From a virus, in IMG/VR virus record IMGVR_UViG_3300042892_003883, positions 1-44,909 of that record: DNA of 44,909 nt; one strand, written 5' to 3'. Under the pieces are notes generated by a model. The model was not told the origin of the DNA and did not search any database. It worked only from the letters and a program-made list of their open reading frames with translations. Positions within the stretch are counted from its first letter, which is position 1. Each line of letters opens with the position of its first letter. Made by a program: the position numbers and the translations under genes. Below are positions 9,452 through 36,584 of this stretch, one piece after another.

Positions 9452-9461
9452 TATAAATATT
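9452..9461 (-). promoter_or_regulatory. Class B promoter-like box (variant)
   Basis: Sense-strand AATATTTATA, one mismatch from the GATATTTATA core, 5 nt before the Nudix ATG. Confidence 0.5.
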
Positions 9462-9501
9462 TACTTATTCCGAAATAAGCCTTATAATTAAATAAAAACC
9501 T

Positions 9502-9843
9502 ATGAATACACTTATTTTTATCTTAATTTGCTACGGAGCATGTAATAACATGATTTGGGGAAGCATTTTTGAAGGCTTTAGAAGCTTTCTATCACGATTT
9601 GGAACTGGCCCTTACAGCGTTCACAAACTATTCACATGCTTTATGTGTCTTGGTACTTGGATGGGCTTCTCAGTTACTCTAATAATGAATTACTTTGGTT
9701 ATTTACATCTTACGCCAATGGGTAGTCTAGGAATCACTAATTTAGGTCTTGCCGTCTTCTTAAACGGACTTTTATCTTCAGCTGGGGTTTGGTTATTCAA
9801 TACTGTTCAAGATGCGTTAGAACAAGGTTTCTATAAGAAATAA
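9502..9843 (+). CDS. Small integral membrane protein with CxxC-type motif
   Basis: A 113-residue plus-strand gene. Three hydrophobic segments are visible, near residues 1-20, 48-66 and 76-100. A conserved-looking motif, HKLFTCFMCLGTWMGF, sits at the start of the second segment. It resembles the 'C..C.g.W.g' motif of small DUF1360-like membrane proteins found in phages and Gram-positive spores; function unknown. The start is preceded by an AT-rich leader containing TATAATTA, as at the other plus-strand gene. Its stop abuts the stop of the convergent gene at 9844. It could alter the host inner membrane. Confidence 0.72.
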   Translation: MNTLIFILICYGACNNMIWGSIFEGFRSFLSRFGTGPYSVHKLFTCFMCLGTWMGFSVTLIMNYFGYLHLTPMGSLGITNLGLAVFLNGLLSSAGVWLFNTVQDALEQGFYKK

Positions 9844-10050
9844 TTAATCCTTAGTTTCATCTTGGTCGATGATTCTAAATCTAAGTAATGGTTTACCGTT
9901 GATGGTAACATCTCCCTTATCATTCTTACCTATTTCTTTAACAGTGACTTTTTTATTCTTGAATTTACCTCCTAGAATTACATCACCAACCTTGATATCA
10001 AGGGTGATAGCTTCTGTTAGTACTTCGTTAAATATTTTGGTTATTTTCAT
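9844..10050 (-). CDS. Small beta-rich unknown protein
   Basis: A 68-residue protein starting at the ATG at 10050; a longer reading from a TTG at 10086 would run through the terminator hairpin and promoter and is rejected. The middle segment (IKVGDVILGGKFKNKKVTVKEI) has the look of a small beta-barrel such as an SH3/KOW-type fold. An exact class B box lies 3 nt upstream, giving a monocistronic late-type unit with an apparently leaderless start. Confidence 0.65.
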   Translation of the reverse strand: MKITKIFNEVLTEAITLDIKVGDVILGGKFKNKKVTVKEIGKNDKGDVTINGKPLLRFRIIDQDETKD

Positions 10051-10053
10051 ATC

Positions 10054-10063
10054 TATAAATATC
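10054..10063 (-). promoter_or_regulatory. Class B promoter box
   Basis: Exact sense-strand GATATTTATA, 3 nt before the ATG at 10050 and just downstream of the terminator at 10074-10097. Confidence 0.65.
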
Positions 10064-10073
10064 CTGTAAAATA

Positions 10074-10097
10074 GAAAAGGACCCAATAGGGTCCTTT
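10074..10097 (-). terminator. Intrinsic terminator
   Basis: Perfect 9-bp stem AAAGGACCC/GGGTCCTTT with a 4-nt loop (10076-10097), ending the operon of the gene at 10100. Confidence 0.8.
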
Positions 10098-10099
10098 AA

Positions 10100-10840
10100 T
10101 TAATATCCTTTAGAATCGATACATTTATCACAAGCTTCGTTTTCATCGCAATCGCAACCACTATAGTTGGCAATTGCTGGTTTACGCTTAGGTGGTAATT
10201 CAATCTTTTTTGCTAGGTTTGAATTTGCTGGTTTATTTGCTTTTCTACTTTCAAGTATCTTTAAATTTCTTTCAGCTCTGGCTTCTTCTTCAGCTAATTC
10301 TCTTTCTTCTTCAGTCATAGCTATTGGTTTACCTTCTTCATCTAAAAACTCAGTTGTTGGTAATATCGCTTCTTCAATAAATGGTGGTTCGATATATTCC
10401 TCTTGCTTTTGTGTTATAGGTATCGTTGGTTCGATTATTTCATCAATCTCAACATCTATATCTGAAATAGCACCGACAAAATCTTCATCACCAAATGTAA
10501 ACTTAAGCCTTTTCAATTTATCAAGTGAATTCTTCTTGAAAACTTCTTTTAATTCGTTTACCTTGGCTTTAAGTAATTCGTGTTTCTTCTCTCGTTCCAA
10601 GTTTATCTTTATAGTCTTATCAACATATTCTAGCAATTTATCTAATCCAACATTAGGGTTCTCACTATGAATCATATGATAGTTCATTGATTCATCACCT
10701 TTCGTTCTGGTAATATTTGCATCCTCTGGAAGTGTCCAACCTTCATTCAATACAACATCAACAACTGGTATCGTCTTTAAAAAACGAATACCAATCACGT
10801 ATGGTTGTAATGATTCTAGTGTCTTTGTTATATTTGACAT
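10100..10840 (-). CDS. Acidic phage protein with Cys-rich C-terminus, unknown function
   Basis: A 246-residue protein. Residues about 1-125 look globular with a long helix (NLEREKKHELLKAKVNELK). The middle is Glu/Pro-rich and probably disordered (residues about 130-185). The C-terminus carries CDCDENEACDKC, a possible small metal site. It is the last gene of the run 11479 to 10100, before a terminator. A virion-associated or scaffold role would fit its composition, but I recognise no family. Confidence 0.65.
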   Translation of the reverse strand: MSNITKTLESLQPYVIGIRFLKTIPVVDVVLNEGWTLPEDANITRTKGDESMNYHMIHSENPNVGLDKLLEYVDKTIKINLEREKKHELLKAKVNELKEVFKKNSLDKLKRLKFTFGDEDFVGAISDIDVEIDEIIEPTIPITQKQEEYIEPPFIEEAILPTTEFLDEEGKPIAMTEEERELAEEEARAERNLKILESRKANKPANSNLAKKIELPPKRKPAIANYSGCDCDENEACDKCIDSKGY

Positions 10841-10845
10841 ATTAT

Positions 10846-11058
10846 TTATAGTTTAATTCCTGTGAAGATAACAGATAACATATAAGCTATAGAAACACAT
10901 AAAAATATCAATGATGTTTTAGAAACCTTATACTTAACTGGTAATTCTTCTGATGATGTTAAGAACGCTTGAATAAAATAATATCCATGTCTGAATACTG
11001 TTAACCCAGACATGAATAATAAAATTATTAATATTCTATTTAATAGTTCAACTACCAT
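10846..11058 (-). CDS. Small two-helix membrane protein
   Basis: A 70-residue protein with hydrophobic segments at about residues 7-28 and 48-68 separated by a polar loop with charged residues (SSEELPVKYKVSK). Two-helix proteins of this size include phage holins, and it lies 1 kb downstream of the GH19 endolysin gene on the same strand, but the intervening genes and lack of any specific motif leave the role open. Confidence 0.6.
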   Translation of the reverse strand: MVVELLNRILIILLFMSGLTVFRHGYYFIQAFLTSSEELPVKYKVSKTSLIFLCVSIAYMLSVIFTGIKL

Positions 11059-11061
11059 AGA

Positions 11062-11250
11062 TTACTTTTTTGGTGATGTTTCGTTTGAAGCTGTTTGTAC
11101 TAATTGCTTAATTGCTTTGTAGCTTTTTCTTAAACGAACACCAGCTGCTTTTTGTTCTTTATTGTAGAATTTATCAGCATCTGTAGCCATTGCGTCAATA
11201 AGTGTGTTGATATCTTTCTTGAAGATGTCGAATTTGTTAGTTGTTTCCAT
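11062..11250 (-). CDS. Histone H1-like (Hc1-type) DNA-binding protein
   Basis: A 62-residue protein matching the short histone H1-like proteins encoded by Bacteroidota: FDIFKKDINTLIDAM, then DADKFYNKEQKAAGVRLRKS, then YKAIKQLVQ. The KAAG-x-R-x-RK core is the most diagnostic part. Such proteins bind DNA non-specifically and compact it. In a phage it could condense host or phage DNA, be packaged, or modulate transcription. It lies 3 nt from the upstream stop of the gene at 10846 and overlaps the 80-residue gene at 11237 by 14 nt. The assignment is from memory of the family pattern and is fairly strong. Confidence 0.75.
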   Translation of the reverse strand: METTNKFDIFKKDINTLIDAMATDADKFYNKEQKAAGVRLRKSYKAIKQLVQTASNETSPKK

Positions 11251-11479
11251 TGTTTTCTGGGTTTAATTGATTGTTATTGTTATTATTTGTCATCATACTA
11301 GTAAATTTAGCAATACTAGCTTCCGTTGCCACAATACGTGACAATAGATGTTTTATTTGTTGTGTTTTTGTGTTGATTTCTAAATCACCATTTATGGTTT
11401 TCTCTAATTCTTCCTCTAACTTTAAGTTATCGGTTGTTAGTTCCATGAGTATTATTTTAATAAGCCTAGCTGTTTCCAT
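11237..11479 (-). CDS. Small coiled-coil protein with Asn-rich tail
   Basis: An 80-residue protein. Residues 1-62 form charged helices with heptad spacing (LTTDNLKLEEELEKTI; IKHLLSRIVATEASIAKF), followed by a low-complexity tail of repeated Asn (NNNNNNQLNPENNGNN). The end overlaps the Hc1 gene by 14 nt, indicating co-expression. No family recognised. Confidence 0.6.
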   Translation of the reverse strand: METARLIKIILMELTTDNLKLEEELEKTINGDLEINTKTQQIKHLLSRIVATEASIAKFTSMMTNNNNNNQLNPENNGNN

Positions 11480-11529
11480 TTAATAAATCTAATGGATGTT
11501 TTTCAAAAGGCAAGTATAAAAGTGATATT

Positions 11530-12003
11530 TTATACGTTTTTCAGTGATTTATCGAAAATTGTATAGATTTCAATGAGAGTATCCATGTCGGAATTAGTCT
11601 TACTTCTGGTATAATCAAATATGTTATACCAAACCTTAAGTACGTTCTTATCCATCTGAATAAACTCATTTTTATCTATAGTTGTGTAATATACTTCAAG
11701 CATAAACTCAAGGAAATAATGATATAGCTTTGGGTTATCAAATAAAAGACCCTCACTCATAAAACGTTCTTTGTTTTTATTCCAACACCAATTAAAATGT
11801 TGGATTTGTTGTTCAATGGTTGTAACGTCATCGCCTAAGTATGTATCAAACGCCAGTCTTAATAGCGATTGTACAAAATCACTATATAATTCACATCGTT
11901 CAATTTGAATATTATTCGCACTGTATAATACAGCGATACCTTCTTTGCTCATTGGATTATTAATATAATCCAAGAAATTATGTTTTTTAGATTTATCGTT
12001 CAT
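11530..12003 (-). CDS. Conserved phage-type hypothetical protein
   Basis: A 157-residue helical protein. The segment DTYLGDDVTTIEQQIQHFNWCWNKNKERFMSEG is reminiscent of a small conserved protein in T4-like and related phages ('T..Q...HF.WCW.k....F..E'). No function is known to me. A TATCTTTG box 13 nt upstream (12017-12024) matches the class A -7 element, but no TTG is present at the expected distance. It is separated from the downstream 80-residue gene by 50 nt. Confidence 0.7.
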   Translation of the reverse strand: MNDKSKKHNFLDYINNPMSKEGIAVLYSANNIQIERCELYSDFVQSLLRLAFDTYLGDDVTTIEQQIQHFNWCWNKNKERFMSEGLLFDNPKLYHYFLEFMLEVYYTTIDKNEFIQMDKNVLKVWYNIFDYTRSKTNSDMDTLIEIYTIFDKSLKNV

Positions 12004-12016
12004 AACTTATTTTTAA

Positions 12017-12024
12017 CAAAGATA
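12017..12024 (-). promoter_or_regulatory. Possible class A -7 element without a -33 box
   Basis: Minus strand TATCTTTG, 13 nt before the ATG at 12003; ATT rather than TTG stands 20 nt upstream. Confidence 0.4.
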
Positions 12025-12048
12025 ATGTGAATTTTTTAAAAATAAATA

Positions 12049-12666
12049 TTATTTTGTTAACCAACTGTAATATCTTTGAGTTAATGATAATCTATCCTCT
12101 AGACCATTTTTACCTCCGTTGATTCTAAGTGTCATTGCAAGTATTGTATCAGTTGTTACGCCTTTATCGGCAATTGCCCATAACTTATTTTTATCAAAGA
12201 AAAATAATGCTGCTTCAAATGCATAATCAGTAGCAACTAACTCTGGGGTTGTCATTATTACTGGTTTCTTAATTGAATCAGCAAATGCTTGGTAATTTAA
12301 TTTTCCAGTAGTTTGCAAGGCCCCTCTACCACGAAATTTGAATCCTTCACCAGATGCTTCATTACCATTACCCATTCTATCAGCATATACACGTGCACCA
12401 ATCTTATGTGGTTGACGAGCATACTCATTAGCCATCGCATCAGTTTTGAAATACTTTCCGAATATTTTTTTAAGTCCATCCGCAGAGTAATTAAGGTTTT
12501 CACTAAATAGTGCATAACCACCTGTTTCATGAGCTGTTTGTCCAAAAAAGTGTGCTGCTCTCTCTGGTGTCATTTTAAAATAAGCCATTGCAGCTTTTAG
12601 TGTTGCTGGTCCAAATGAACCATCGGCCTTAACGCCTATTTTTTCTTGTAATTTAATTAAACTCAT
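12049..12666 (-). CDS. GH19-family endolysin (chitinase-like muramidase)
   Basis: A 205-residue peptidoglycan hydrolase. Residues about 3-30 look like a small peptidoglycan-binding helix bundle (LQEKIGVKADGSFGPATLKA). The catalytic domain follows: HFFGQTAHETGG with Glu47, SENLNY with Glu56, then RMGNGNEASGEGFKFRGRG. The Glu-Glu spacing of nine equals that of the catalytic pair (Glu49/Glu58) described for the SPN1S GH19 endolysin. No signal peptide is present, so export would depend on a holin. It is a single-gene unit with an exact class B box 32 nt upstream. A second endolysin (amidase) lies at 18134. Confidence 0.92.
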   Translation of the reverse strand: MSLIKLQEKIGVKADGSFGPATLKAAMAYFKMTPERAAHFFGQTAHETGGYALFSENLNYSADGLKKIFGKYFKTDAMANEYARQPHKIGARVYADRMGNGNEASGEGFKFRGRGALQTTGKLNYQAFADSIKKPVIMTTPELVATDYAFEAALFFFDKNKLWAIADKGVTTDTILAMTLRINGGKNGLEDRLSLTQRYYSWLTK

Positions 12667-12698
12667 TGTTGTGTGTTTTAGGAAACGTTATTGTTATT

Positions 12699-12708
12699 TA
12701 TAAATATC
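12699..12708 (-). promoter_or_regulatory. Class B promoter box of the GH19 endolysin gene
   Basis: Exact sense-strand GATATTTATA, 32 nt before the ATG and directly after the terminator at 12716-12749. Confidence 0.65.
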
Positions 12709-12715
12709 ATTAAAA

Positions 12716-12749
12716 ACAAAAAACCCCTAGAAAATTCTAAGGGTTTTTA
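12716..12749 (-). terminator. Intrinsic terminator
   Basis: Minus-strand hairpin with CCC(T)TAGAA pairing to TTCTAGGG(G) and a T run after it, 20-50 nt past the stop at 12769. Confidence 0.75.
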
Positions 12750-12768
12750 AGTATATTTAATTAACAAT

Positions 12769-14628
12769 TTATTGTTTGTTCATTGCGTTTTTTATTTGTT
12801 CTGGGTCATGTTCACCAGAACCATCTTCACCACCAGCAGCTGCTGATTCATCAATATCATCAAACGCATCTGCGATATCAATTCCTTCTCTTTCAGCATC
12901 TTCAATATGATTAACAATTGCATCGTAATCGTTACCATACATTTCAAAAGCTTTTTCTGGGATTGCAACGCCATTGTTTAAATCATCAGCAAAAACGTGC
13001 TTATTTCCTAATAATAAGAAATGTTCACCTGTTGTTTTTGATGTGAATTTTTTATAGTTTTTAGATGGTGCAACTTTAATATCATCAACTGGTTCAGCTT
13101 CTATTGGAACAGCCATAGCTTCTGGTTCATCGATAGAAGAATCATCATCGTCATCATCACCCATTTCATTAGGTGTTTTATCACCCATTTCAACTGAATC
13201 GTCTTCATCGTCATCACCTTCTTCTGGTTCTACTGGCTCTGGTTCTACGTGTTCTTCTTCTTCTTCTTCTTCGTCTTTTTCTATTTCATCTTCTTCATTC
13301 ATTGGTGCGAAATAGTTTTCACCTAATTTAATACCTTTTTTGTTTGATTCTTTTACAACCTTAGCTGTAGCAGTAGCTGTGTGAGTAGCTGTTCCGCTTT
13401 CAACGTGTTTTTTAGCATCTGCTGATTGAGAAACTTTAATCTTATCCCATTCACCAACTTTAGGTGCTGGAGCTTTTGTTCCTTTTTCAGTTGAGGCTGT
13501 TCCTTCAACATGCTTCTTTGCATCAGCAGATTGAGGTACACTAATTTTTTCCCATTCACCTTTTTTAGGTGCTGGAGCTTTTGTTCCTTTTTCAGTTGAA
13601 ACACTTCCTTGAATATGTTTCTTTGCTTCTGGAGCTGATTTTACAACTGTATCAATTGATTCAGCTGAACCTTCAACCGCATCAGAATCTTCGATATCAT
13701 CAGATTCACCAAGTAATTTTTTAGTTTTTTTCCAAACGTCACCAAAAGCAGCGTTCTCATTAACTCTAGATTTACCTTTTACAAGACCAAGAGTATCAGA
13801 AGACTTATAACCCATAAGAGCTTTCATTCTAGACATATCTTCACTAATTAAAGATTTATTAGCAGATGTTAATACAACAGCTTTACCTTCTTTAAGTGTT
13901 CCTTCCCAACGAACTTTACAAGTAACATTTCCGTCAGAAATTTCAAACACTTTCTTATCTGTTCTATAGCCTTCTGGGATTAGGGTTAAGGCATGACCTA
14001 TTTTTTGTGTAGTATTACTACCTTCGAATTCTTTTTTAAATGTGATTCTTTTCATTGATTCTTTTATTTTTGGTTTATTGTTATTTTCATTATTTTCAGC
14101 CATAGCTAATTTTTTAGAGCCTTTTTTAACATCTTTAGGTAAGTTTTCAATATCATCACCAAGACCATAGAATGGAATCTCAGCAGCATCTTTTTTCTTC
14201 TGACCAGCAAGTGTCGCATCTATAAATTTTTGACCGAAATCATCAGATGACGCACCCCAAGCAGCTTCAGCATTACCGCCTTTAGCATTACCCATAGTTG
14301 AATCACCTTTGATAGCTTTTTTTGCTCTATCGTTGAATAACTTATCAGTTCTATCGTATTGAAGGTTTTGCATACCACCACCAAGTTCTATCTCAGCATG
14401 ATAATCTTCTTCTTGTTTATCGTTGTAGTTGAATTTAACAGTAGAATCCTTTTTATCACCTTTGATAGATTTTTCATAGTCTTTTACTGTCTTATCAATA
14501 TCCTTAACACCAGCAGCGTTAATTTTTTTGTTTTCTGAACCAATACTTTTAGTCATTTTAATACCTGGAGTTGTTTCTTCAGATACAAATCTATTAGTTA
14601 ATCGGTTTTTTATCGTATTTTTATCCAT
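12769..14628 (-). CDS. Large acidic, repeat-containing protein, probable virion or head-core component
   Basis: A 619-residue hydrophilic protein without signal or membrane segments. Layout: a Lys-rich N-terminal region (1-190); a possible folded domain about 190-310 (MKRITFKKEFEG ... MKALMGYKSSDTLG); tandem 35-residue repeats about 325-415 with the core STEKGTKAPAPK-x-GEW and spacer AKKH; a run of Asp/Glu about 440-510; and a short C-terminal domain (YKKFTSKTTGEHFLLLGN). Long acidic low-complexity stretches are common in scaffold or internal head proteins, but this is inference. It has a class B promoter 19 nt upstream and a terminator downstream. Confidence 0.7.
   Translation of the reverse strand: MDKNTIKNRLTNRFVSEETTPGIKMTKSIGSENKKINAAGVKDIDKTVKDYEKSIKGDKKDSTVKFNYNDKQEEDYHAEIELGGGMQNLQYDRTDKLFNDRAKKAIKGDSTMGNAKGGNAEAAWGASSDDFGQKFIDATLAGQKKKDAAEIPFYGLGDDIENLPKDVKKGSKKLAMAENNENNNKPKIKESMKRITFKKEFEGSNTTQKIGHALTLIPEGYRTDKKVFEISDGNVTCKVRWEGTLKEGKAVVLTSANKSLISEDMSRMKALMGYKSSDTLGLVKGKSRVNENAAFGDVWKKTKKLLGESDDIEDSDAVEGSAESIDTVVKSAPEAKKHIQGSVSTEKGTKAPAPKKGEWEKISVPQSADAKKHVEGTASTEKGTKAPAPKVGEWDKIKVSQSADAKKHVESGTATHTATATAKVVKESNKKGIKLGENYFAPMNEEDEIEKDEEEEEEEHVEPEPVEPEEGDDDEDDSVEMGDKTPNEMGDDDDDDSSIDEPEAMAVPIEAEPVDDIKVAPSKNYKKFTSKTTGEHFLLLGNKHVFADDLNNGVAIPEKAFEMYGNDYDAIVNHIEDAEREGIDIADAFDDIDESAAAGGEDGSGEHDPEQIKNAMNKQ
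13390..13640 (-). repeat. 105-bp tandem coding repeats
   Basis: Two full copies and a partial third of a 105-bp (35-codon) unit. A core of over 30 identical bases recurs at about 13462 and 13567. Encodes repeats in the 619-residue protein. Confidence 0.8.
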
Positions 14629-14647
14629 CTTTTTATTTTGGTTTAAT

Positions 14648-14657
14648 TATAAATATC
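14648..14657 (-). promoter_or_regulatory. Class B promoter box of the 619-residue protein gene
   Basis: Exact sense-strand GATATTTATA, 19 nt before the ATG at 14628 and 19 nt after the stop at 14677. Confidence 0.65.
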
Positions 14658-14676
14658 TAAGTTTTAGCTAAAGTTA

Positions 14677-16401
14677 TTAAGCTTTAGTGTTTTTTGATTC
14701 AATTATTCGTTTAACTTCTTCTATTGTTTTACCAGTCTTTTTAGCAATTACCTCATAAAGTGATGATGGGGCTGTTTTTGAATATGATACAACACCAGAA
14801 TCTCCTTGATTACATTTACCATTCTGAGCTGATTTGTTGTTATTAAGCTTAACACAACTATTTAATTTAACAAAAGAACCTTTTTTTATTTGAGGTTCCT
14901 TTTGAGCTTTTGTTTTCTCACCTTTTTTAAATGTACCATCAGCCGCAATATTTAACGCATTAGCATCATAAGGACCTACACTATCTGGGCCAGCTGTCAT
15001 TTCTTTAACAACCTTTACTTTTGGTTTATTAATATCTCTACTTACCATATCTGGTTTGCCAGCTCCAAAAGGTCCAACAAACATACCAGTAGCACCAGGC
15101 ATACCAGTATTCATTTCCATTACTTCATCATATGGTGTTCCAAAAAAATCTGGGGCTGGTGGGTCTTTTTTCTCAACATCTGGTGCTGGTGTGCGTTCAC
15201 CCTTTGCAGTCATTCTCATTTTTGTAAGTGCTTTCTTGCTATTGATAGCGTTTTCAGCATCTCTCTTATCAAAAAATTCTTTCTCCCATTTTTGTGAATC
15301 AGCTCTTATCTTAGCTAATCTAGATTTAAGGTCATCCCCTTCTTCTTCTTGAACGTTAGACTCACTTAATATCGAAACTAAGTTTTTATCTTTATCGTAA
15401 TGAGATATTAAATGTTCTTTTACTTCATCATCTATTATAACAACATATTCATTTCCAGTTTCGTAAAAATCATATGGTGTTTCACCATTAGTTGGACCAG
15501 ATACAACATTTATTTGACCGTCCTCAACCATTAAATTAACATAATTTGCTATGTCTTCTTTAGTTGGTCTAATGTTATCCATCTTGTCATCTACAGGATA
15601 TGAAATAGCTTCAGCATTCATATAATCTTCATCATTAACATTTCCATGATAAAAAACAAACTTAGAACCTTTTGAGTCTAGAATAATTATTTCTCTATTT
15701 GCATATAATCCAGTAAATAAAGGATTCATTGGGTCTCTTGCTTCAACATATTCATCATCTTTTTGATTATATGGTGCTCTGCTATCATCTTTAGCTCCAG
15801 CTGGATAATTATCATTCTCATCAACAACTGGTTTGACATGTTTCCTTAATTCTTCTTCAACAGTTTTAACAGCTGTTTTAGCATCACCAAGTGATTTAGA
15901 TAATTGATGTGTTCCATTCTTCTTAACAAGCATTCCTTTACTTAAAAGAGTGTTAGTTATTGAATCATGAGATAAACCATTTTGTTCCCAATATGGTGAT
16001 AAGGTATCGCTTTTGCGATATAAATATTTTAATAAATCAGCTACTTCAGCTGGGTGTTTGTCTTCAACTTCATCATTTTCAATAGAATTTTCTTTAATTG
16101 GAATTGGACGAACTTTTTTCATTTTACTATTTGGTATATCTATAGGGGCCTCAATATTAAATTTACCTAACGATATCTCATTTTCATCTTCACTAAAAGT
16201 TTTAACACCACTACCTTTAAATTCTCGTTTGAAGCTATTATCAACTCGATTCAAACCACCTTTAATTTTAACACCACCTTCTTTTATAAGTCTATTATAT
16301 TGTTCAAGTGTAATTTTAATTACAGCACTTTTTTTATTTGGTGTTTTACTAACAATACCGAGTAATTTAGCTTGATTTTCTGTTATTTTAATTTTTTTCA
16401 T
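14677..16401 (-). CDS. Large hydrophilic phage protein, probable virion component
   Basis: A 574-residue protein, mostly polar with several likely disordered, Lys/Glu/Pro-rich parts (for example residues about 340-430). The N-terminus has two similar motifs, KIKITENQAKLL and IKITLEQYNRLIKEG, that look like a short duplicated element. A possible folded domain lies at about 180-330 (REIIILDSKGSKFVFYHGN; YEYVVIIDDEVKEHLI-like strands). The C-terminal 65 residues (KKGSFVKLNSCVKLNN ... VIAKKTGKTIEEVKRIIE) form a small separate domain. The ATG overlaps or abuts the stop of the 84-residue gene (16403), so the two share the class B promoter at 16668. Family not recognised. Confidence 0.68.
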   Translation of the reverse strand: MKKIKITENQAKLLGIVSKTPNKKSAVIKITLEQYNRLIKEGGVKIKGGLNRVDNSFKREFKGSGVKTFSEDENEISLGKFNIEAPIDIPNSKMKKVRPIPIKENSIENDEVEDKHPAEVADLLKYLYRKSDTLSPYWEQNGLSHDSITNTLLSKGMLVKKNGTHQLSKSLGDAKTAVKTVEEELRKHVKPVVDENDNYPAGAKDDSRAPYNQKDDEYVEARDPMNPLFTGLYANREIIILDSKGSKFVFYHGNVNDEDYMNAEAISYPVDDKMDNIRPTKEDIANYVNLMVEDGQINVVSGPTNGETPYDFYETGNEYVVIIDDEVKEHLISHYDKDKNLVSILSESNVQEEEGDDLKSRLAKIRADSQKWEKEFFDKRDAENAINSKKALTKMRMTAKGERTPAPDVEKKDPPAPDFFGTPYDEVMEMNTGMPGATGMFVGPFGAGKPDMVSRDINKPKVKVVKEMTAGPDSVGPYDANALNIAADGTFKKGEKTKAQKEPQIKKGSFVKLNSCVKLNNNKSAQNGKCNQGDSGVVSYSKTAPSSLYEVIAKKTGKTIEEVKRIIESKNTKA

Positions 16402-16402
16402 A

Positions 16403-16657
16403 TTAACTACTTTTGTTACTTAAATTATTCACCCATAAACCTCTTTTAGTCCAAAGAGTTTTATATAATTGGCTTAAAACATTCTTAGTTATATCAACTA
16501 CTTTATCTTCCAATCCTTTATCATCTTTTATTCTGTCTTTAATAATTTTCTCAATTTTATTTTTAAACTCAGTTGTATCCATATAGATTTTTAACTCCTT
16601 GGATACGTCAGCTTTTGTTAGCTCCTCGTTTAATTTATTTTTAATTGGATTCTTCAT
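16403..16657 (-). CDS. Small basic helical phage protein
   Basis: An 84-residue Lys-rich helical protein (KNKIEKIIKDRIKDD; VVDITKNVLSQLYKTLWTKR). The C-terminal part recalls small proteins found next to structural genes in other large phages; function unknown. It is the first gene after a class B promoter and is directly followed by the 574-residue gene, so both are probably late and virion-related. Confidence 0.65.
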   Translation of the reverse strand: MKNPIKNKLNEELTKADVSKELKIYMDTTEFKNKIEKIIKDRIKDDKGLEDKVVDITKNVLSQLYKTLWTKRGLWVNNLSNKSS

Positions 16658-16667
16658 CTGTTTTCTA

Positions 16668-16677
16668 TATAAATATA
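16668..16677 (-). promoter_or_regulatory. Class B promoter box (variant)
   Basis: Sense-strand TATATTTATA, first base differing from the core, 10 nt before the ATG at 16657 and 10 nt after the terminator at 16688-16710. Confidence 0.55.
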
Positions 16678-16687
16678 TGATTAATCA

Positions 16688-16710
16688 CAAAAAAAGCCCC
16701 AATGGGGCTT
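16688..16710 (-). terminator. Intrinsic terminator of the lysis-type operon
   Basis: Hairpin AAGCCCC/GGGGCTT (16694-16710) with a 3-nt loop and a seven-T run on the minus strand, 19 nt past the stop at 16729. Confidence 0.85.
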
Positions 16711-16728
16711 AATTTTAAAGGTTTCTTT

Positions 16729-16902
16729 TTACTTTCCCTGTAGAGGGTTCTTTTTGCCTGTTAGTGCTTCATATTCGGTATTTATCTCACCTGTCTGAGG
16801 GTCGTGAGTCGGAATAGGAAACTTAGGTTCTTCTTTTTTCTTAGCTTCTTCAGCTCTCTTTGCGATATCTCTAAAGATATCATGCATATGATTACTTCCC
16901 AT
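16729..16902 (-). CDS. Short 57-residue charged protein at the end of the lysis-type operon
   Basis: A 57-codon frame found by reading the minus strand. It begins MGSNHMHDIFRDIAKRAEEA, continues Lys/Glu-rich, and ends NPLQGK. The ATG overlaps the stop of the spanin-like gene above it (TAATG), a typical coupled arrangement, and the terminator follows closely. The segment PIPTHDPQTGEINTEYEALT is a plausible conserved core. No membrane segment or signal is present. The coupling and the lack of any other use of the interval support a real gene; function unknown. Confidence 0.65.
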   Translation of the reverse strand: MGSNHMHDIFRDIAKRAEEAKKKEEPKFPIPTHDPQTGEINTEYEALTGKKNPLQGK

Positions 16903-17369
16903 TACTTTGCCATTAATATTATCACTGTTATTGGTAGTACTACCGCTGCTGTAAACCCAATCACTTTAAGTATTTTCTGTTTACGTATTTCTTTCTTTTG
17001 TTTCTTAATAGTATCTAGATGTAAATCTATTTCAGTATCTTTATTGAGCATGATTTGAGTATCGTTAGCTATAATTTTTTTAAAATTATTACATTTAGAT
17101 TCATAAGCATCAACTTGTGATTTTAATAAAGAAATTGATGATAGATGAATAACTTCTCGCTCCATATAAACTTCAATTAAGCTATCAGAAATTTGTTTAC
17201 CATATAAATCATTTAGAACGACCTTGGCATCAGCTAAAGTCATTGTAACAAGTGTATCGCCTTTAGCGTTAGTGCTTGTTAGTACTCTTGGTTCTATCTT
17301 TGAGATAGTCTGAGAAAGCGTTTGAAACGCCATTAGCAGACAAACCATTAACACGAATAGTTGTTTCAT
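16902..17369 (-). CDS. Exported coiled-coil protein with C-terminal membrane anchor, spanin-like partner
   Basis: A 155-residue protein. Residues 1-19 are a signal peptide (MKQLFVLMVCLLMAFQTLSQ). A soluble part (about 20-90) includes TMTLADAKVVLNDLYGK. A charged coiled coil spans about 75-130, and a hydrophobic segment lies at about 132-153 near the end (ILKVIGFTAAVVLPITVIIL). No canonical lipobox precedes Cys10, so it is not a standard outer-membrane spanin; an exported protein with a C-terminal anchor recalls unimolecular spanins in reverse detail. Its first 101 nt overlap the end of the i-spanin-like gene in another frame, the classical Rz/Rz1 layout. I recall related proteins near endolysins in Bacteroidota phages. 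Lysis function is inferred. Confidence 0.68.
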   Translation of the reverse strand: MKQLFVLMVCLLMAFQTLSQTISKIEPRVLTSTNAKGDTLVTMTLADAKVVLNDLYGKQISDSLIEVYMEREVIHLSSISLLKSQVDAYESKCNNFKKIIANDTQIMLNKDTEIDLHLDTIKKQKKEIRKQKILKVIGFTAAVVLPITVIILMAK

Positions 17370-17658
17370 TTTTTTGTTTTTTTAATTTATCTAAATCTGA
17401 TTGTGTCTTAGCAAGCTTAATTTCATTAGCTACTAATTGTGTATTGATGTCGGCTATTGCTGCATCAAGCTTTGTATTAACAATTTTAAGACTATCGTTT
17501 CTCTTTGTTAATATCTCATTATTAGCACGTAATGCATCAATAACATCTTTTTTATAGTCAATTTTATTACGTTGACCAAACAAAAAACTGATACATAATG
17601 CAATACCAAGTATAATGATAACCCAAGTTTTAAAATCTAAATTAGTTTTCATCAACAT
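17269..17658 (-). CDS. i-spanin (Rz)-like protein
   Basis: A 129-residue protein with one N-terminal hydrophobic segment (WVIIILGIALCISFLFG, about 12-28), then a long charged coiled coil (about 35-100: KKDVIDALRANNEILTKRN; LAKTQSDLDKLKKQK) and a short C-terminal tail. That is the topology of inner-membrane spanin subunits, which with an outer-membrane partner fuse the two membranes at the end of lysis. The starts at 17658 and 17652 are both ATG; either overlaps the upstream gene by 11-17 nt. Its 3' end overlaps the next gene by 101 nt in a different frame. The amidase lies two genes upstream. Confidence 0.7.
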   Translation of the reverse strand: MLMKTNLDFKTWVIIILGIALCISFLFGQRNKIDYKKDVIDALRANNEILTKRNDSLKIVNTKLDAAIADINTQLVANEIKLAKTQSDLDKLKKQKNETTIRVNGLSANGVSNAFSDYLKDRTKSTNKH

Positions 17659-18127
17659 CGTTTAAATCTTCAACTGCCCATTCTTCAGTCCAATTCTTAT
17701 AATAACCAATTAGTTTACCTAATAAAGAAACTAAATTTGTCTCTAATACGATATTTTCAGAGCTTGGTATTAATTCTGGGTTTGACCCTAATAAAGTCAT
17801 TTTAAATTTAACACCAGCATTTATATCTGGCTTAGGCAGAAACGTCCCTTCCAATAAAACATCCTCATTTTGTGGATAAATTTTGAAATTGTCAATACGA
17901 ACTCTCTTATCAATAGTTTGTAAACCTTCTAATTCTTCTTTCCAAAGAGCACCACCTTTTACTGGTGACTTAGTTGCTTCTGGTTCTTCGCCATCTACTT
18001 CTGGTTGCATTTGTTCTTGACCAGGATTACCCATTGTATCTTCTTCGTTGATGATACTCTTAAAACCACCTCTCATGATATTCATCATTTGTTTGGTTTT
18101 GTCATGTTCGTTAATGTTTTCTTTCAT
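17642..18127 (-). CDS. Unknown soluble protein in the lysis-type operon
   Basis: A 161-residue acidic protein. An N-terminal polar region (1-60, Glu/Gln/Pro-rich) is followed by a possible folded domain (VRIDNFKIYPQNEDVLLEGTF; GVKFKMTLLG; LVSLLGKLIGYYKNWTEEW). No signal or membrane segment. It sits between the amidase (gap 6 nt) and the i-spanin-like gene (overlap 17 nt), so it is co-transcribed with both. The N-terminal MMNIMRGGF and INEE elements recall tail or head proteins of this phage type, so its role may be structural rather than lytic. Confidence 0.6.
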   Translation of the reverse strand: MKENINEHDKTKQMMNIMRGGFKSIINEEDTMGNPGQEQMQPEVDGEEPEATKSPVKGGALWKEELEGLQTIDKRVRIDNFKIYPQNEDVLLEGTFLPKPDINAGVKFKMTLLGSNPELIPSSENIVLETNLVSLLGKLIGYYKNWTEEWAVEDLNDVDEN

Positions 18128-18133
18128 TCTTTT

Positions 18134-20007: not shown

Positions 20008-20018
20008 TTTCTTTTATT

Positions 20019-20028
20019 TATAAATATC
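20019..20028 (-). promoter_or_regulatory. Class B promoter box of the lysis-type operon
   Basis: Exact sense-strand GATATTTATA, 11 nt before the ATG at 20007 and 8 nt past the sigma terminator. Confidence 0.68.
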
Positions 20029-20036
20029 CCAAATAT

Positions 20037-20060
20037 AAAAAAAGGGGCAAAACCCCTTTT
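20037..20060 (-). terminator. Intrinsic terminator of the sigma-factor gene
   Basis: Minus-strand hairpin AAAAGGGG/CCCCTTTT (loop TTTTG) extended by further T, immediately after the stop at 20063. Confidence 0.85.
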
Positions 20061-20062
20061 AG

Positions 20063-20893
20063 TTATTCATGCATTAAACTATACAAGTCGTGGGCGTTAT
20101 GTCTTAATTTTCGAATTGCTTTTTCTTTAATTTGTCGTATTCTTTCTTTTGTTAGTGAATATTTTTCACCGATTGCTTCAAGTGTCATTGGTTCAAAATC
20201 AGTATTAATACCAAAATAACATTCGATAATTACTCGTTCTCTTTCATCAAGTGTTTCAAGTGTTTTATTTAATTCGTTTTTGATTCTAGTATCAACGATT
20301 AAAAGGTCTTCTTCTTGATTATCACCAGCAATAAGTTCTATTAATTCATCACCTTCTTCATTTATTGTTTCGTTAAGTGAAGCACACTTAGGAAAACTTA
20401 AAAGTTGCATTGGTTCATTTTCCTTATCAAAGATTTCACCATAAACTGGCTCTCTTTCATTAGCATATTCAAACTTAGCAATTTCTTTTTTTAGATATGA
20501 TAATTTGTTGATGACATTTGCTGGCAGTCTTACTATCCTTGCGTTATCATTAAGGCTTTGAATGATTGATTGTTTTACCCACCATACAGCGTATGATATA
20601 AATCTAAAACCTCTTTCATGTTCAAATCTATGTGCTGCTTTTATTAGACCATAATTACCTTCACTGATTAAATCGGATAAAGGTAAACCTTGCCCTTGAA
20701 ATTCTTTTGCTATTGAAACTACAAATTTAAGGTTTGAGTTTACTAATGTTTCTATGGCTTTTTGGTCACCATTTTTTATTTTTTTTGCTAATTCTATCTC
20801 ATCTTGTTGGGTTAGAATAACTGTTTTTCTTACGTCTTTAAAATACTTAGATATACTATCATCACTATCAAAATTTACATATTTTCGGTTCAT
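20063..20893 (-). CDS. RNA polymerase sigma-70 family factor (RpoD-like)
   Basis: A 276-residue factor with all DNA-contacting regions. Region 1.2 (about 10-40, SISKYFKDVRK); region 2 (about 52-115) with NLKFVVSIAKEFQGQGLPLSDLI..., RFISYAVWWVKQSI as the -10 recognition part; region 3 (INKLSYLKKEIAKFE...); and region 4 with LDERERVIIECYFGI and a helix-turn-helix TLEAIGEKYSLTKERIRQIK. Length and sequence resemble the short RpoD of Bacteroidota (about 287), suggesting capture from a host. It is a single-gene unit between two terminators, with a class B box 43 nt upstream, so it may be self-activated. It is the obvious candidate to read class B promoters. Confidence 0.95.
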   Translation of the reverse strand: MNRKYVNFDSDDSISKYFKDVRKTVILTQQDEIELAKKIKNGDQKAIETLVNSNLKFVVSIAKEFQGQGLPLSDLISEGNYGLIKAAHRFEHERGFRFISYAVWWVKQSIIQSLNDNARIVRLPANVINKLSYLKKEIAKFEYANEREPVYGEIFDKENEPMQLLSFPKCASLNETINEEGDELIELIAGDNQEEDLLIVDTRIKNELNKTLETLDERERVIIECYFGINTDFEPMTLEAIGEKYSLTKERIRQIKEKAIRKLRHNAHDLYSLMHE

Positions 20894-20936
20894 TAATTTG
20901 TTTCATTTTTCTTCTTTTTTTCGTTATGTTTGTTAC

Positions 20937-20946
20937 TATAAATATA
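20937..20946 (-). promoter_or_regulatory. Class B promoter box (variant) of the sigma gene
   Basis: Sense-strand TATATTTATA, 43 nt before the sigma ATG and 3 nt past the terminator at 20950-20976. Confidence 0.58.
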
Positions 20947-21537: not shown

Positions 21538-21568
21538 CAAAGGTACTAAATAAAACATCACAATCCAA
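21538..21568 (-). promoter_or_regulatory. Class A promoter
   Basis: Minus strand TTG (21566-21568), 20 nt, TACCTTTG (21538-21545), upstream of the gene starting at 21521. Confidence 0.8.
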
Positions 21569-22233: not shown

Positions 22234-22244
22234 TAATAAATATC
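22234..22244 (-). promoter_or_regulatory. Class B-like box (variant)
   Basis: Sense-strand GATATTTATTA, with one extra T relative to the core, 13 nt before the HNH ATG. Confidence 0.4.
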
Positions 22245-25582: not shown

Positions 25583-25587
25583 TTTAT

Positions 25588-26400: not shown

Positions 26401-26401
26401 G

Positions 26402-26668
26402 TTATAAAATATCTTTTCCTTTTTCAAGTGGTTGAAGTCTAAATGCTTCAACTATTTCGTTATTTTCTATTCTTATTAATGTTTGTTTAAGCATACCTTG
26501 AAACAAATCATCTTTTAAGTAAAACCCATCTTCATATTCACTATGACATTTCCATGAAACAGGGTTCATCATTTTATAGTCTGTTGGTAACATAAATGGA
26601 TTGTATCTGACACCTCTAGTATCAGTTAGTTTACAATCTTTTACTTCACCCATTATCGGTTTGCTCAT
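26402..26668 (-). CDS. Small unknown protein
   Basis: An 88-residue protein with one internal motif-like stretch (DTRGVRYNPFMLPTDYKMM; WKCHSEYEDGFYLKDDLFQ). It lies between the PD-(D/E)XK nuclease (gap 1 nt) and the gp47-like gene (gap 1 nt), so it is co-transcribed with both. No recognisable family. Confidence 0.65.
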   Translation of the reverse strand: MSKPIMGEVKDCKLTDTRGVRYNPFMLPTDYKMMNPVSWKCHSEYEDGFYLKDDLFQGMLKQTLIRIENNEIVEAFRLQPLEKGKDIL

Positions 26669-27456: not shown

Positions 27457-27487
27457 CAAATATACTATTAATTTAGACGTATTGCAA
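27457..27487 (-). promoter_or_regulatory. Class A promoter of the nuclease/recombination operon
   Basis: Minus strand TTG (27485-27487), 20 nt, TATATTTG (27457-27464), with 4 nt to the ATG at 27452. Confidence 0.8.
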
Positions 27488-30679: not shown

Positions 30680-32833
30680 TTAAAAGTCCATTGATAATTC
30701 CAACATTATTGTATTTCCAGCTAATAAAGCCACTGGGGTGCTAAGTTTACCAATACAAACAAGATTCTTTGCTGAGTCATAAATAGCTACTTCACTAACC
30801 TTGATATTTGGTGGGTTAGTTGATGATACTTGACTTCTAGTTGGGTTTGTCGTTGCATTAAACTCACTTGATGCTACATTAACATCAAACATTGTTTTAT
30901 AAATTGTTGCACCAATAAATGTTGTTAAATTTCCGTAGAAAAATCTTTCATCACCAAATTGTAAATTTGATGCTTGATTATTTGGGGCCATATTAAGTTT
31001 TTCAATAATACTGAATGTTGTTGCACTAGAGTCATTAATAGAGTTAACTAAGAAGCCAGTAGTTGTTGCTGCTGGATTTTCTAATAGTGTTGGATTAATT
31101 GTTTCACCAGAAACACCTGTAATAGCTGTTGATGTAAAATCAATTACTTTCCAAGCACCTGGGTCTGGTCTTGTGCTTGGTGACTGAACTATTTGATAAA
31201 CTAATTTAAACGTATCAGCATAGAAACCAAGACCATCATAACTACCAGATTCAATTTTACGCATGTATGGTAACGCATCTAACTCTCCTATTCTAAATGT
31301 AACATCTTTTTTAGATGCTGAATTATTAGTTAGCTTAATATAATTTTGAGCGTGAAGACTAGTTGTTAATCCACTAACATAATTATTCTCAAGAATATAT
31401 GTCATATAAATTGTATCATTTATATTTAAAAGACCAGTAGATGTTCCACCACTTGGTGCTTGAACGACAGCTGATAATACTGGGAGTGTCCAGTTTCTAT
31501 TTGATTTGTAAGAGATAGCTGCAACAATTTCATCATCATGAATAACAATTGTTTTTAATTGTGGGTAAACTCTACCAACAACTAATGGCATTGTATCACC
31601 ACTAGATAAAAGTGTCATGTCTTCAATTAAATCAATATATTCAATATCACTAGTGCCAACTAATTTTGTATCACCAGAAGATATGAATCTCATGCCTTGT
31701 GTTGTTCCACTACCAGTGTTAAATCCTCTTCTATGATACATTAAATCTGGTAAATAAATTTGAACCATCTTTGAATTTGTCGTATCAATATATAAGAACT
31801 CACCATAAAGGTTAGATATCGTATTGTTTGTATAATGAAGAATGCTAATCGATTTAGTTACATCATCTGGATAACTAAATCCAGGACCGTTACAGTTAAA
31901 ATTAAGCGTATCCGCAGTTGAAGAACAAAGATATTCTAAGTAAGGATTCTTATCACCTAAATAAGGGTATGAACCAAATTTAGTATAGTCTTCATAAACA
32001 GGCGTAGGTGTTGTAAGGCCAGTTATACCAGCAATATTTTCACACCATACATTATTCATATTCCAAACTGGAACGTCATGACATGTCACGTTATTTGATG
32101 CATTAAATGAAAGTGTTCCAGAATCCCAATAAGATGTAGTATTACCAGTCGCTATTGTTTCATAAACTTCACCACCTCTATAAATAATAACAGTTGAATT
32201 AGTTGATGATGCTGAATAATTTGGAAGCGTTCTATCAACTGTAACAGTATTACCTGTCATTGATTGAATCTTGAACCATAAGCTTGGAATCGGTGTTGCG
32301 TTTTCAGTACTACTTAAGTTACCAACTGTGTCATTTGTTAATTTAACAAGCATGATATCACCAACTGTAACCGCTGATGTGGTAGCAAGTGTTAAATTGC
32401 TAGTACTAGCAAAACTATTTGTTGCTATTAATTCTACATATGGTGTGTATGTGTTAGCTGTAAGTGTCGTATAAACACTGCCAGATGTACTAAAAAACCC
32501 TCTTTCAAGAGCTTCATTATTAACAACAGCTTTAATTACACTAATATTTGCTTGTGTTAATGGTTGAAATGGGTTACCAGCAGCACCAGCTGTGATGTAA
32601 GATTTTAAATTTGGTTGTCTATCAAATGGTCGCATAATCTTACTCGTTGCCGATAAAGTTATGTCATTTGGACCATGAAAAGCATCAACAATAGCTTCTC
32701 TACCGTAATTTATTTCGGAATCACCAATCGCCCAAAAAGAGAAATTAAGTTGTCCTTGGGCTAATTGTTCCCTACCTTTTTCTGTTAGTTTTATGCTAAC
32801 AAATGGGCTCGTGCTATTAATTATGTAACTCAT
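30680..32833 (-). CDS. Large tail structural protein, paralogue of the adjacent gene
   Basis: A 717-residue Ser/Thr/Asn/Tyr-rich protein without signal or membrane segments. It shares its first about 100 and last about 60 residues in pattern with the 404-residue gene downstream; about 300 residues are inserted between. The N-terminal motif FWAIGDSEINYGREAIVDA is one I remember from structural genes of large uncultivated Bacteroidota phages. Two exact class B boxes precede it, the nearer only 4 nt from the ATG. Confidence 0.78.
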   Translation of the reverse strand: MSYIINSTSPFVSIKLTEKGREQLAQGQLNFSFWAIGDSEINYGREAIVDAFHGPNDITLSATSKIMRPFDRQPNLKSYITAGAAGNPFQPLTQANISVIKAVVNNEALERGFFSTSGSVYTTLTANTYTPYVELIATNSFASTSNLTLATTSAVTVGDIMLVKLTNDTVGNLSSTENATPIPSLWFKIQSMTGNTVTVDRTLPNYSASSTNSTVIIYRGGEVYETIATGNTTSYWDSGTLSFNASNNVTCHDVPVWNMNNVWCENIAGITGLTTPTPVYEDYTKFGSYPYLGDKNPYLEYLCSSTADTLNFNCNGPGFSYPDDVTKSISILHYTNNTISNLYGEFLYIDTTNSKMVQIYLPDLMYHRRGFNTGSGTTQGMRFISSGDTKLVGTSDIEYIDLIEDMTLLSSGDTMPLVVGRVYPQLKTIVIHDDEIVAAISYKSNRNWTLPVLSAVVQAPSGGTSTGLLNINDTIYMTYILENNYVSGLTTSLHAQNYIKLTNNSASKKDVTFRIGELDALPYMRKIESGSYDGLGFYADTFKLVYQIVQSPSTRPDPGAWKVIDFTSTAITGVSGETINPTLLENPAATTTGFLVNSINDSSATTFSIIEKLNMAPNNQASNLQFGDERFFYGNLTTFIGATIYKTMFDVNVASSEFNATTNPTRSQVSSTNPPNIKVSEVAIYDSAKNLVCIGKLSTPVALLAGNTIMLELSMDF

Positions 32834-34316: not shown

Positions 34317-34558
34317 TAGTAATCTATTTCTAGTGTAATCATTGTAATATTATTTGTATTTCTAAGTCCAAAATTAATTGGTTTTAGAAGTCCTTCTGTG
34401 TCTTCAATCTTACTGAAATTTTGTAAAAAGGCAACAAGACCATTCATATTGATATAATCTTCTTCTTGAACTTGCCCTGTAACACTAGTAATTAATTGAA
34501 CACTACCAATCGGTAAGTCAATTAATTCTCCTTCTATTTTCTTTATTAATTGTGGCAT
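34316..34558 (-). CDS. Small tail-module protein, unknown function
   Basis: An 80-residue protein (LIKKIEGELIDLPIGSVQLI; NMNGLVAFLQNFSKIEDTE). It lies between the fibre gene (gap 3 nt) and the 474-residue gene (overlap 1 nt), so it is probably a late tail-assembly or fibre-attachment protein. No family recognised. Confidence 0.65.
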   Translation of the reverse strand: MPQLIKKIEGELIDLPIGSVQLITSVTGQVQEEDYINMNGLVAFLQNFSKIEDTEGLLKPINFGLRNTNNITMITLEIDY

Positions 34559-34561
34559 ATA

Positions 34562-36559
34562 TTATGGTTTTCTAAATACACTTCTATTTGTTGTTCCGAT
34601 AGATGTTGTTATTGTTACGGCAGTCGTTGTATATAAACCACCATTAGCAAGTGTTGTATCAGCATCGGCAGCTGCATCGTCAATATAATCTCTTATTGTC
34701 ATTAATGCAAGTGTTTCAACATATGTTGTGTTAGATATTGTTCCTGTTATACCATCACCAAACACAATAGTACTATTACCATTAGCAGTGCTTCCACTAC
34801 CATGTACAAAACTAGTTTGTCCAGATGCGATTGAATTATAACCTCCAGCATGTGAATAATTACCAATAGACGTTGTTAAAAAACCTTCAGCGTGGCTCGT
34901 TTCACCACTTGCTGTTGTTAAATATCCTTCAGCGTGACTAATATTACCTATTGCAGTTGTTTCTTGACCTTCAGCGTGACTTACTATACCACTTGCTATA
35001 GTATTATGACCTTCAGCATGACTCGCATCACCACTGGCAGTACTTCCACTTCCACTAGCATTACTCGCACCACCACTAGCTATTGTACCAGCACCTTCAG
35101 CATGACTAAAAGTACCACTAGCTGTTGATAAATAACCTTCAGTGTGTGCAAAATTACCATTAGCAATTGTTAACCAACCTTCAGAATGGCTAGCTAAACC
35201 ACTTGCGGTTGTATTAGCACCTTCAGCATGACTTATGTTACCAGTTGCTCGTGTTTGTTGATTTTGTGCGTGACTATAATAACCAGTAGCTTGTGACTCA
35301 TAACCTTCAGCATGTGCTTCTGGTCCACTAGCTATTGTGTTAAAACCTTCAGTATGACTCGCAATACCATAGGCTGTTGTATATGAACCTTCAGCATGAC
35401 TATAATTACCACTAGCTGTCGTGTGTGTTCCTTCAGAGTGACTACCATCACCACTAGCTATTGTAATATCTCCTTCGGCATGACTTGTATTACCGCTAGC
35501 TAATGAACTAAAACCTTCAGCATGAGAATAATCAGAAAATGCTGTTGTTAGTCTACCTTCAGCATGACTTGCAACACCACTTGCTATCGTACTATTTCCT
35601 TCAGCATGACTAGCACCACCACTTGCTATTGTATTGACACCTTCAGCATGACTTGTATAACCACCAGCTACGCTGAAATAACCTTCAGCATGTGAATAAT
35701 CCCCACTTGCTGTTGTTTCTTCACCTTCGGCATGTGAATATGCACCGCTTGCTATTGTGAAATGATTTTCGGCATGGCTAGCAATACCAAGAGCCCTAGC
35801 TCCATGACCTTCAGCGTGTGTTTTGTTACCTAATATGATATCAGCAAAAGTACTATTCAAGTTGGTTACATCAGCTACGTAAGTACCGCTATTAATTGTT
35901 GTATTATTTAATAAAATCTCAGTTGATGTCGCTGAACTAAAAGTTACTGTATTGTATGTATATATGTAACCATCTAATATAACAGTAGAACCAGCAAATT
36001 CAGAGGTTACATCACCATATGTACCATCAAGTGAAATTAAACCACTGGTAATACCTGTGATTGTAAACCCTTTCCAACCAGCTCTACTACTTTCACCTTC
36101 ACTATGACTGTCACTACCAAAAGCTATTGTACTATTTCCTTCAGCATGACTATTATTACCACTTGCTGTTGTTAAATATCCTTCAGAATGACTATTACCA
36201 CCACTTGCTATTGTTTGATTACCTTCGGCATGACTATAATCACTAATTGCTGTTGTTAGCCAACCTTCAGCATGACTAACTTGGCCAAGTGCTTTTGTTT
36301 CATCACCTTCAGCAACTGAATAATCACCTGTTGCATCAAGACCACTATCATTATTAGCTTTTATTGATTGATAACCAGTGCTACCGCTAGTCCAATATTC
36401 GCTAGCAGTTCCACTGCCACCAAATAAAGCGACATATTCACTCATAGGTATCTTATAAGAGCTACCAGCTGAGTTTTGTGATGTATCGCTAGTTATCACT
36501 ATGTGTATTAGGTCTGTTAAGCTAGCACCAGATGCTTGTATTCTGTCGGTTAATTTCAT
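34562..36559 (-). CDS. Tail fibre with YadA-type head repeats
   Basis: A 665-residue fibre-like protein. The first 75 residues form an attachment domain (LTDLIHIVITSDTSQNSAG). From about residue 79 to 600 come about 30 tandem 14-residue repeats of the form SHAEG-x3-T-x-ASG-x2, as in the left-handed beta-roll of trimeric autotransporter adhesins such as YadA. A non-repeat insertion of about 85 residues (FTITGITSGLISLDGTYGDV...) interrupts after the sixth unit. The C-terminal 60 residues (ALMTIRDYIDDAAADADT ... GGLYTTT) resemble phage-fibre ends. It probably forms a trimeric receptor-binding or whisker fibre. A class B box lies 15 nt upstream. Confidence 0.9.
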   Translation of the reverse strand: MKLTDRIQASGASLTDLIHIVITSDTSQNSAGSSYKIPMSEYVALFGGSGTASEYWTSGSTGYQSIKANNDSGLDATGDYSVAEGDETKALGQVSHAEGWLTTAISDYSHAEGNQTIASGGNSHSEGYLTTASGNNSHAEGNSTIAFGSDSHSEGESSRAGWKGFTITGITSGLISLDGTYGDVTSEFAGSTVILDGYIYTYNTVTFSSATSTEILLNNTTINSGTYVADVTNLNSTFADIILGNKTHAEGHGARALGIASHAENHFTIASGAYSHAEGEETTASGDYSHAEGYFSVAGGYTSHAEGVNTIASGGASHAEGNSTIASGVASHAEGRLTTAFSDYSHAEGFSSLASGNTSHAEGDITIASGDGSHSEGTHTTASGNYSHAEGSYTTAYGIASHTEGFNTIASGPEAHAEGYESQATGYYSHAQNQQTRATGNISHAEGANTTASGLASHSEGWLTIANGNFAHTEGYLSTASGTFSHAEGAGTIASGGASNASGSGSTASGDASHAEGHNTIASGIVSHAEGQETTAIGNISHAEGYLTTASGETSHAEGFLTTSIGNYSHAGGYNSIASGQTSFVHGSGSTANGNSTIVFGDGITGTISNTTYVETLALMTIRDYIDDAAADADTTLANGGLYTTTAVTITTSIGTTNRSVFRKP
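34751..36325 (-). repeat. 42-bp degenerate tandem repeats (14-residue beta-roll units)
   Basis: About 31 units counted in the translation, six before and 25 after an insertion of about 250 bp. The SHAEG pentapeptide is the most conserved part. Units are diverged at the DNA level, so recombination may reshuffle them. Confidence 0.88.
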
Positions 36560-36574
36560 TTCTTTTTGTTTTTA

Positions 36575-36584
36575 TATAAATATC
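36575..36584 (-). promoter_or_regulatory. Class B promoter box of the fibre gene
   Basis: Exact sense-strand GATATTTATA, 15 nt before the fibre ATG, just downstream of the nucleotidyltransferase gene. Confidence 0.65.

Follow-up and report, generated by a model that had tools for sequence, protein, structure and literature searches.

A one-box class of probable late promoters in T4-type Bacteroidota jumbo phages

In phage T4, late promoters lack a -35 element and consist of an 8-bp TATA box placed roughly one turn of the helix before the start site; gp55 reads them together with gp33 and the gp45 clamp (PMC2988020). The sigma-A promoter of the Bacteroidota is a different, two-part element, TTG / TAnnTTTG (PMC6847099). 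Group 2 jumbo phages, Bacteroidota phages included, combine gp23-type capsids with a minimal sigma factor and sometimes an RpoD-like one (PMC7824862). We found no promoter assignment for Group 2 jumbo phages in the searchable literature, and no match there, with subscription journals thinly covered, for the motif described here or for a Bacteroidota phage late promoter. A first-pass annotation had proposed this motif, which we call class B, as an undescribed late-promoter family; its sequence is new in the searchable literature, but its kind is that of the known one-box T4 late system with a minimal sigma factor. We consider it likely that class B is the one-box late promoter of T4-type Bacteroidota jumbo phages, read by a gp55-like sigma factor on the host core polymerase. 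The sequences show the element itself, its strand and position, its conservation, the lack of a -33 box, the genes that it precedes and its occurrence together with the gp55-like gene in relatives; its role as a promoter, its late action and its reading by a gp55-like protein are what we infer from them.

The DNA analysed here (the window) covers the whole of a 44.9-kb virus record. It is a fragment of a larger phage, and nearly all of its genes are on the minus strand. At 5165-6685 it encodes a 506-aa protein that matches PHROG 850, 'RNA-binding protein' (E 4e-146). The window holds nine exact copies of GATATTTATA on the sense (minus) strand and none on the antisense strand (mean 0.36 and maximum 3 in 200 dinucleotide shuffles). 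Intergenic sequence makes up 3.8% of the window, yet seven of the nine copies lie there (binomial P ~4e-9). These seven are the intergenic, minus-strand copies (sense for nearly all genes) that the first-pass annotation had listed, each at its given position; two copies within coding sequence had been missed (18406-18415 and 43091-43100). Three of its four near copies likewise stand (AATATTTATA at 9452, TATATTTATA at 16668 and 20937), while the fourth, GATATTTATT, begins at 22235 rather than 22234. AT content, an objection that the annotation had itself raised, does not explain GATATTTATA, because shuffling within the gaps gives a mean of 0.02 copies and a maximum of 1; we rejected an AT-content artefact on the shuffles, the antisense counts and the host control described below. 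A 16-nt matrix trained on relatives alone, with the window excluded, recovered the previously listed sites and gave 16 sense and 0 antisense matches at >=9 bits in the window (shuffle mean 1.2). The class B sites are as follows.

9452..9461, minus strand: weak class B box AATATTTATA before the NUDIX gene 8895-9446; 10.1 bits; kept before 6 of 8 orthologues
10054..10063, minus strand: class B box GATATTTATA before the small ORF 9844-10050; ATG 13 nt from box start, leaderless type
10076-10097: hairpin and T run directly upstream of the 10054 box
12699..12708, minus strand: class B box GATATTTATA before the endolysin (GH19) gene 12049-12666; 15.3 bits; terminator 12719-12748; kept before most orthologues
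14648..14657, minus strand: class B box GATATTTATAATTAAA before the 619-aa ORF 12769-14628; 18.5 bits, the window's best; before 23 of 24 orthologues
16668..16677, minus strand: class B box TATATTTATA before the 84-aa ORF 16403-16657 and the 574-aa ORF 14677-16401; 12.2 bits; terminator 16694-16710; kept before most orthologues
20019..20028, minus strand: class B box GATATTTATAAATAAA before the 421-aa membrane-type ORF 18742-20007 and the amidase 18134-18745; 17.7 bits; terminator 20040-20060; kept before most orthologues
20937..20946, minus strand: class B box TATATTTATA before the RpoD-like sigma gene; 12.3 bits; terminator 20949-20977; mostly not conserved
22235..22244, minus strand: class B box GATATTTATT before ORF 21570-22217, whose likely start is an internal ATG; 15.0 bits
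32867..32876, minus strand: class B box, upstream member of a tandem pair, before the 717-aa ORF 30680-32833; 16.4 bits
32838..32847, minus strand: class B box, downstream member of the pair; ATG 14 nt from box start, leaderless type
36575..36584, minus strand: class B box GATATTTATATAAAAA before the 665-aa fibre-like ORF 34562-36559 (PHROG 25468); 16.8 bits
43900..43909, minus strand: weak, doubtful class B-like box TATATTAATA before ORF 42972-43886; 9.1 bits
18406..18415, minus strand: exact GATATTTATA within the amidase coding sequence, probably no promoter
43091..43100, minus strand: exact GATATTTATA within the coding sequence of ORF 42972-43886, probably no promoter

A further match at position 12041 (13.9 bits) was left out of the count, since a class A promoter (12017-12046) and the endolysin gene's end both overlap it.

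To extend the analysis, relatives were gathered via their gp46-like and sigma proteins, and ~2.1 Mb was fetched from 14 of them. The exact 10-mer GATATTTATA is present in all 48 of the relatives' records tested, mostly on a single strand. A check of the kind that the annotation had proposed, motif discovery on intergenic regions, returned the same core. We called genes with a simple gene caller in 11 close phages, the window among them, and scanned the gaps before genes for k-mers without assuming any motif; in this unbiased scan ATATTTAT was the 8-mer with the strongest strand asymmetry (278 sense and 64 antisense occurrences). The same scan gave 100 sense and 12 antisense occurrences of GATATTTA, and the host-type boxes TACCTTTG and TATATTTG ranked closely behind ATATTTAT. 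As a host control we used 983 gaps from 80 mostly Bacteroidota contigs, in which class B was not enriched (ATATTTAT, 6 sense and 8 antisense; full element, 0 and 0), whereas class A, the host-type class described below, was found 159 times sense and 46 times antisense.

Logos extend the box to a full element, nATATTTATWA-nn-AAA, of which GATATTTATA is the conserved part. The A triplet lies at +13 to +15 from the box, with 0.91-0.98 A at the commonest spacings and across several motif-ATG distances. It keeps a constant spacing from the box but not from the start codon and is therefore part of the box rather than a translation signal, and it probably marks the start of transcription, which would fall at or beside the triplet, ~12-13 nt past the first base of the box. 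The preferred distance from box to ATG is 21-26 nt, and distances of 13-14 and 40-44 nt are also seen. In a distinct group of genes in the 11 close phages, represented in the window by the sites at 10054 and 32838, exactly 13-14 nt separate the start of the box from the ATG. This is what would be expected if transcription begins at that point, and it suggests that these genes give leaderless late mRNAs. Most class B mRNAs would carry leaders of ~8-13 nt, with a leaderless subset. Before the 717-aa gene, tandem boxes 40-43 and 13-14 nt from the ATG are conserved in seven phages. The -33 box is absent, as had been claimed: this region carries 0.7-0.8 bits in class B versus 3.8-5.3 bits in class A. 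The description of the sites as mostly following straight after a terminator holds for five of them (10054, 12699, 16668, 20019 and 20937; 9000-25000 examined), where a hairpin terminator directly precedes the box and its T run often forms the upstream region.

Like a T4 late promoter, class B is a single AT-rich box in the -10 region, roughly one turn of the helix ahead of the presumed start, has an AT-rich start region and no -35 element, and precedes virion and packaging genes. The phages that carry it share a gp23-type capsid and a T4-type sheath with T4 (Straboviridae and kin), and the large relatives and phage immuto encode a putative gp55-like sigma factor. In an inferred register that places AAA at +1 to +3, (G/T)ATATTTA and the T4 late TATAAATA have up to six of eight bases in common, with T first; class B differs in having TT for the central AA followed by a further conserved T, an A triplet at the start and frequent leaderless placement. 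TATAAATA itself is not enriched on the sense strand and occurs mainly antisense, as the complement of class B; the box is (G/T)ATATTTAT. For gp33 (PHROG 254), seven of eight genomes gave no match, although a short diverged protein could escape, and one gave a marginal match inside a 753-aa frame; for gp45, sought through the C-terminal-domain family PF09116 alone, nine records gave nothing, although a diverged clamp could escape. Because neither gp33 nor the gp45 C-terminal family was convincingly found, we say that class B works like the T4 system and not that it is that system. Late promoters of the SPO1/Twort type, CGTTAGA-N18-GATATT, have two boxes and a phage-encoded sigma factor; they resemble class B in GATATT, but they belong to unrelated phages and class B has no upstream box. 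With the Bacteroidota sigma-A promoter class B shares A-11 and the TTT core, but it lacks T-12 (any base), G-5 (A instead) and the -33 TTG.

The window also carries that host promoter. Class A, TTG-N20-TAnnTTTG with a spacer of ~20, is by its sequence an ordinary host-type promoter; four examples are listed here.

27457..27487, minus strand: class A promoter TTG-N20-TATATTTG before the exonuclease 26670-27452; class kept in orthologues
21538..21568, minus strand: class A promoter TTG-N20-TACCTTTG before ORF 20988-21521
8414..8444, minus strand: class A promoter before the RNase HII-like ORF 7796-8416
1624..1654, minus strand: class A promoter before ORF 1125-1592

Promoter class is retained by orthologues at 30-80% protein identity, and the earlier claim that the two gene sets are nearly disjoint is borne out across them. 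Class B is kept before the 619-aa ORF 12769-14628 (23/24), the endolysin, the 84-aa, 421-aa and 717-aa ORFs and the NUDIX gene, and class A before the exonuclease, primase, RNase HII and ORF 20988-21521. In relatives class B lies directly upstream of the tail sheath gene in 8/8 cases and of the terminase gene (terL) in 3/3. The capsid genes have no class B box of their own within 700 nt; in two large relatives (G020 and G024) class B stands at the head of the gene that immediately precedes the gp23-type capsid gene, and the capsid gene is probably co-transcribed with that gene. By PHROG tally, the first genes behind class B are sheath, terminase and many homing endonucleases, and those behind class A include nucleotidyltransferases, NUDIX, single-strand DNA-binding protein and ParB. 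These gene types suggest that class B genes are late. Altogether these comparisons support class B as a putative second class of promoter whose genes hardly overlap with those of class A, located upstream of late-type genes, conserved across related phages and missing from host gaps.

Which sigma factor reads class B? Twelve large relatives encode a second sigma-like protein of ~245 aa that repeatedly shows a weak similarity to T4 gp55. The window, being a fragment, does not contain this gene; members are located as follows.

G020, 101308-102036: gp55-like protein
G024, 201972-202700: gp55-like protein
G030, 156254-157027: gp55-like protein
L311-L316 and L323-L482: gp55-like members

The best matches are E 1.4e-6 for PHROG 234 ('late sigma') and, by protein, 3e-6 for Pfam Sigma70_r2, and the best PDB sequence match is T4 gp55 itself (E 0.021); profile-profile comparison with gp55 is weak (probability 5-7%, E 0.005-0.007). 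The AlphaFold model is mediocre (pLDDT 71, pTM 0.40), and its top Foldseek matches are mostly sigma factors, all non-significant (E >=0.1). The family is large, with >580 IMG/VR matches, and is weakly recognised by Pfam or PHROGs. Its members are ~60 aa longer than gp55 and have a helical C-terminal extension absent from the T4 protein. In three of the large relatives (G020, G024 and G011) the gp55-like protein is accompanied by two RpoD-like ones, which makes three sigma-like proteins in each.

The cultured Flavobacterium phage immuto, whose host is Flavobacterium sp. LMO8, carries gp20, gp23, a T4-type sheath and a gp55-like protein (78174-78872; E 3e-21), and has class-B-like nATATTTAT boxes before terL (119017), gp20, the sheath gene (147026) and others. 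Taken alone, its gp55-like protein does not match the late-sigma PHROG, and Sigma70_r2 itself gives no match in this phage. A second immuto class, the two-box agTTGc-N-TATATTTAggta, is distinct from the class-B-like boxes and probably early. Around ~60-76 kb (L485-L487) many small genes of this phage share near-identical agTTGc-N-TATATTTAggtatcaataattaaa promoters, in which TTTA replaces the host TTTG, also probably early. Tenacibaculum phage PTm1 has no class B in its first 50 kb and its whole record matches neither the gp55-like profile nor Sigma70_r2, which is consistent but uninformative.

On the reading that we favor, a phage gp55-like minimal sigma factor with the host RNA polymerase core would read the class B box instead of the host -7/-33 promoter, and this switch would activate virion, packaging, lysis and many homing-endonuclease genes. 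A more specific version, which we offer tentatively, is that a two-domain late sigma factor, with a gp55-like region 2 and a helical C-terminal domain in place of gp33, reads a TT variant of the T4 TATA box and gives rise to late mRNAs of which many have short leaders or none, and that a captured RpoD-like sigma factor runs separate promoters.

The window encodes such an RpoD-like protein, whose gene the annotation had implied to be the source of the class B reader.

20063..20893, minus strand: RpoD-like phage sigma factor, 276 aa; Pfam Sigma70 r1.2, r2 and r4; PHROG 351; aligned with host RpoD

The best cellular homologues of this protein, mostly from Bacteroidota, share 43-48% identity with it, and the sigma gene adjoins gp46/gp47-like genes family-wide (window 20063-26451; L001-L021). 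For this protein to read class B, its region 2 would have shifted to (G/T)ATATTTAT and the -33 contact would have become dispensable. In favor of this, the departures of class B from the host -7 box TAnnTTTG (PMC6847099) are concentrated at -12 and -5, and a modest change in specificity might bridge them; the sigma gene also keeps its place next to the gp46-like gene throughout the family, and in the window it is itself preceded by class B. That last point, correctly noted for the window, recurs in just 4 of 35 sequences examined from relatives. In region 4.2, the helix contacting -33 is intact and nearly host-like (TKERIRQIKEKAIRKLR), which suits the two-box class A better than a class without a -33 box. 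Furthermore, neither Pfam nor profile searches found an RpoD-like sigma factor in the whole immuto genome, although a very diverged one could escape such searches. Since immuto nonetheless has class-B-like boxes, class B seems, in this one phage, not to need an RpoD-like sigma factor. We therefore regard the RpoD-like protein as an unlikely reader of class B, and its proposed role there as probably wrong; it more likely would serve class A, host-type promoters.

It is less probable still, and in our view improbable, that the host housekeeping sigma factor, possibly with a phage activator, reads class B as a weak form of its own promoter. The TTT core and A-11 do coincide with the host -7 box TAnnTTTG, and the -33 element of F. 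johnsoniae is also weak (PMC6847099), but class B lacks two invariant bases of the host box, T-12 and G-5, host gaps show no enrichment, and the class B gene sets are nearly disjoint from those of class A. We give least credence to class B being an RNA-level 5' leader signal for processing or translation, as its preferred 21-26 nt from the ATG might suggest, since AAA is locked to the box while the ATG distance varies, the boxes directly follow terminator hairpins where a new start is expected, and host gaps hold no such signal.

Class B, read as a gp55-like-dependent late promoter, would provide a sequence rule for locating late transcription units in a large uncultured family of Bacteroidota jumbo phages. 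It separates two types of phage sigma factor and makes a testable claim on what the captured RpoD-like one does not do. Immuto has a cultured host, so direct testing is feasible now. More broadly, these findings suggest that the T4 late-transcription strategy may extend to hosts with unusual promoters of their own.
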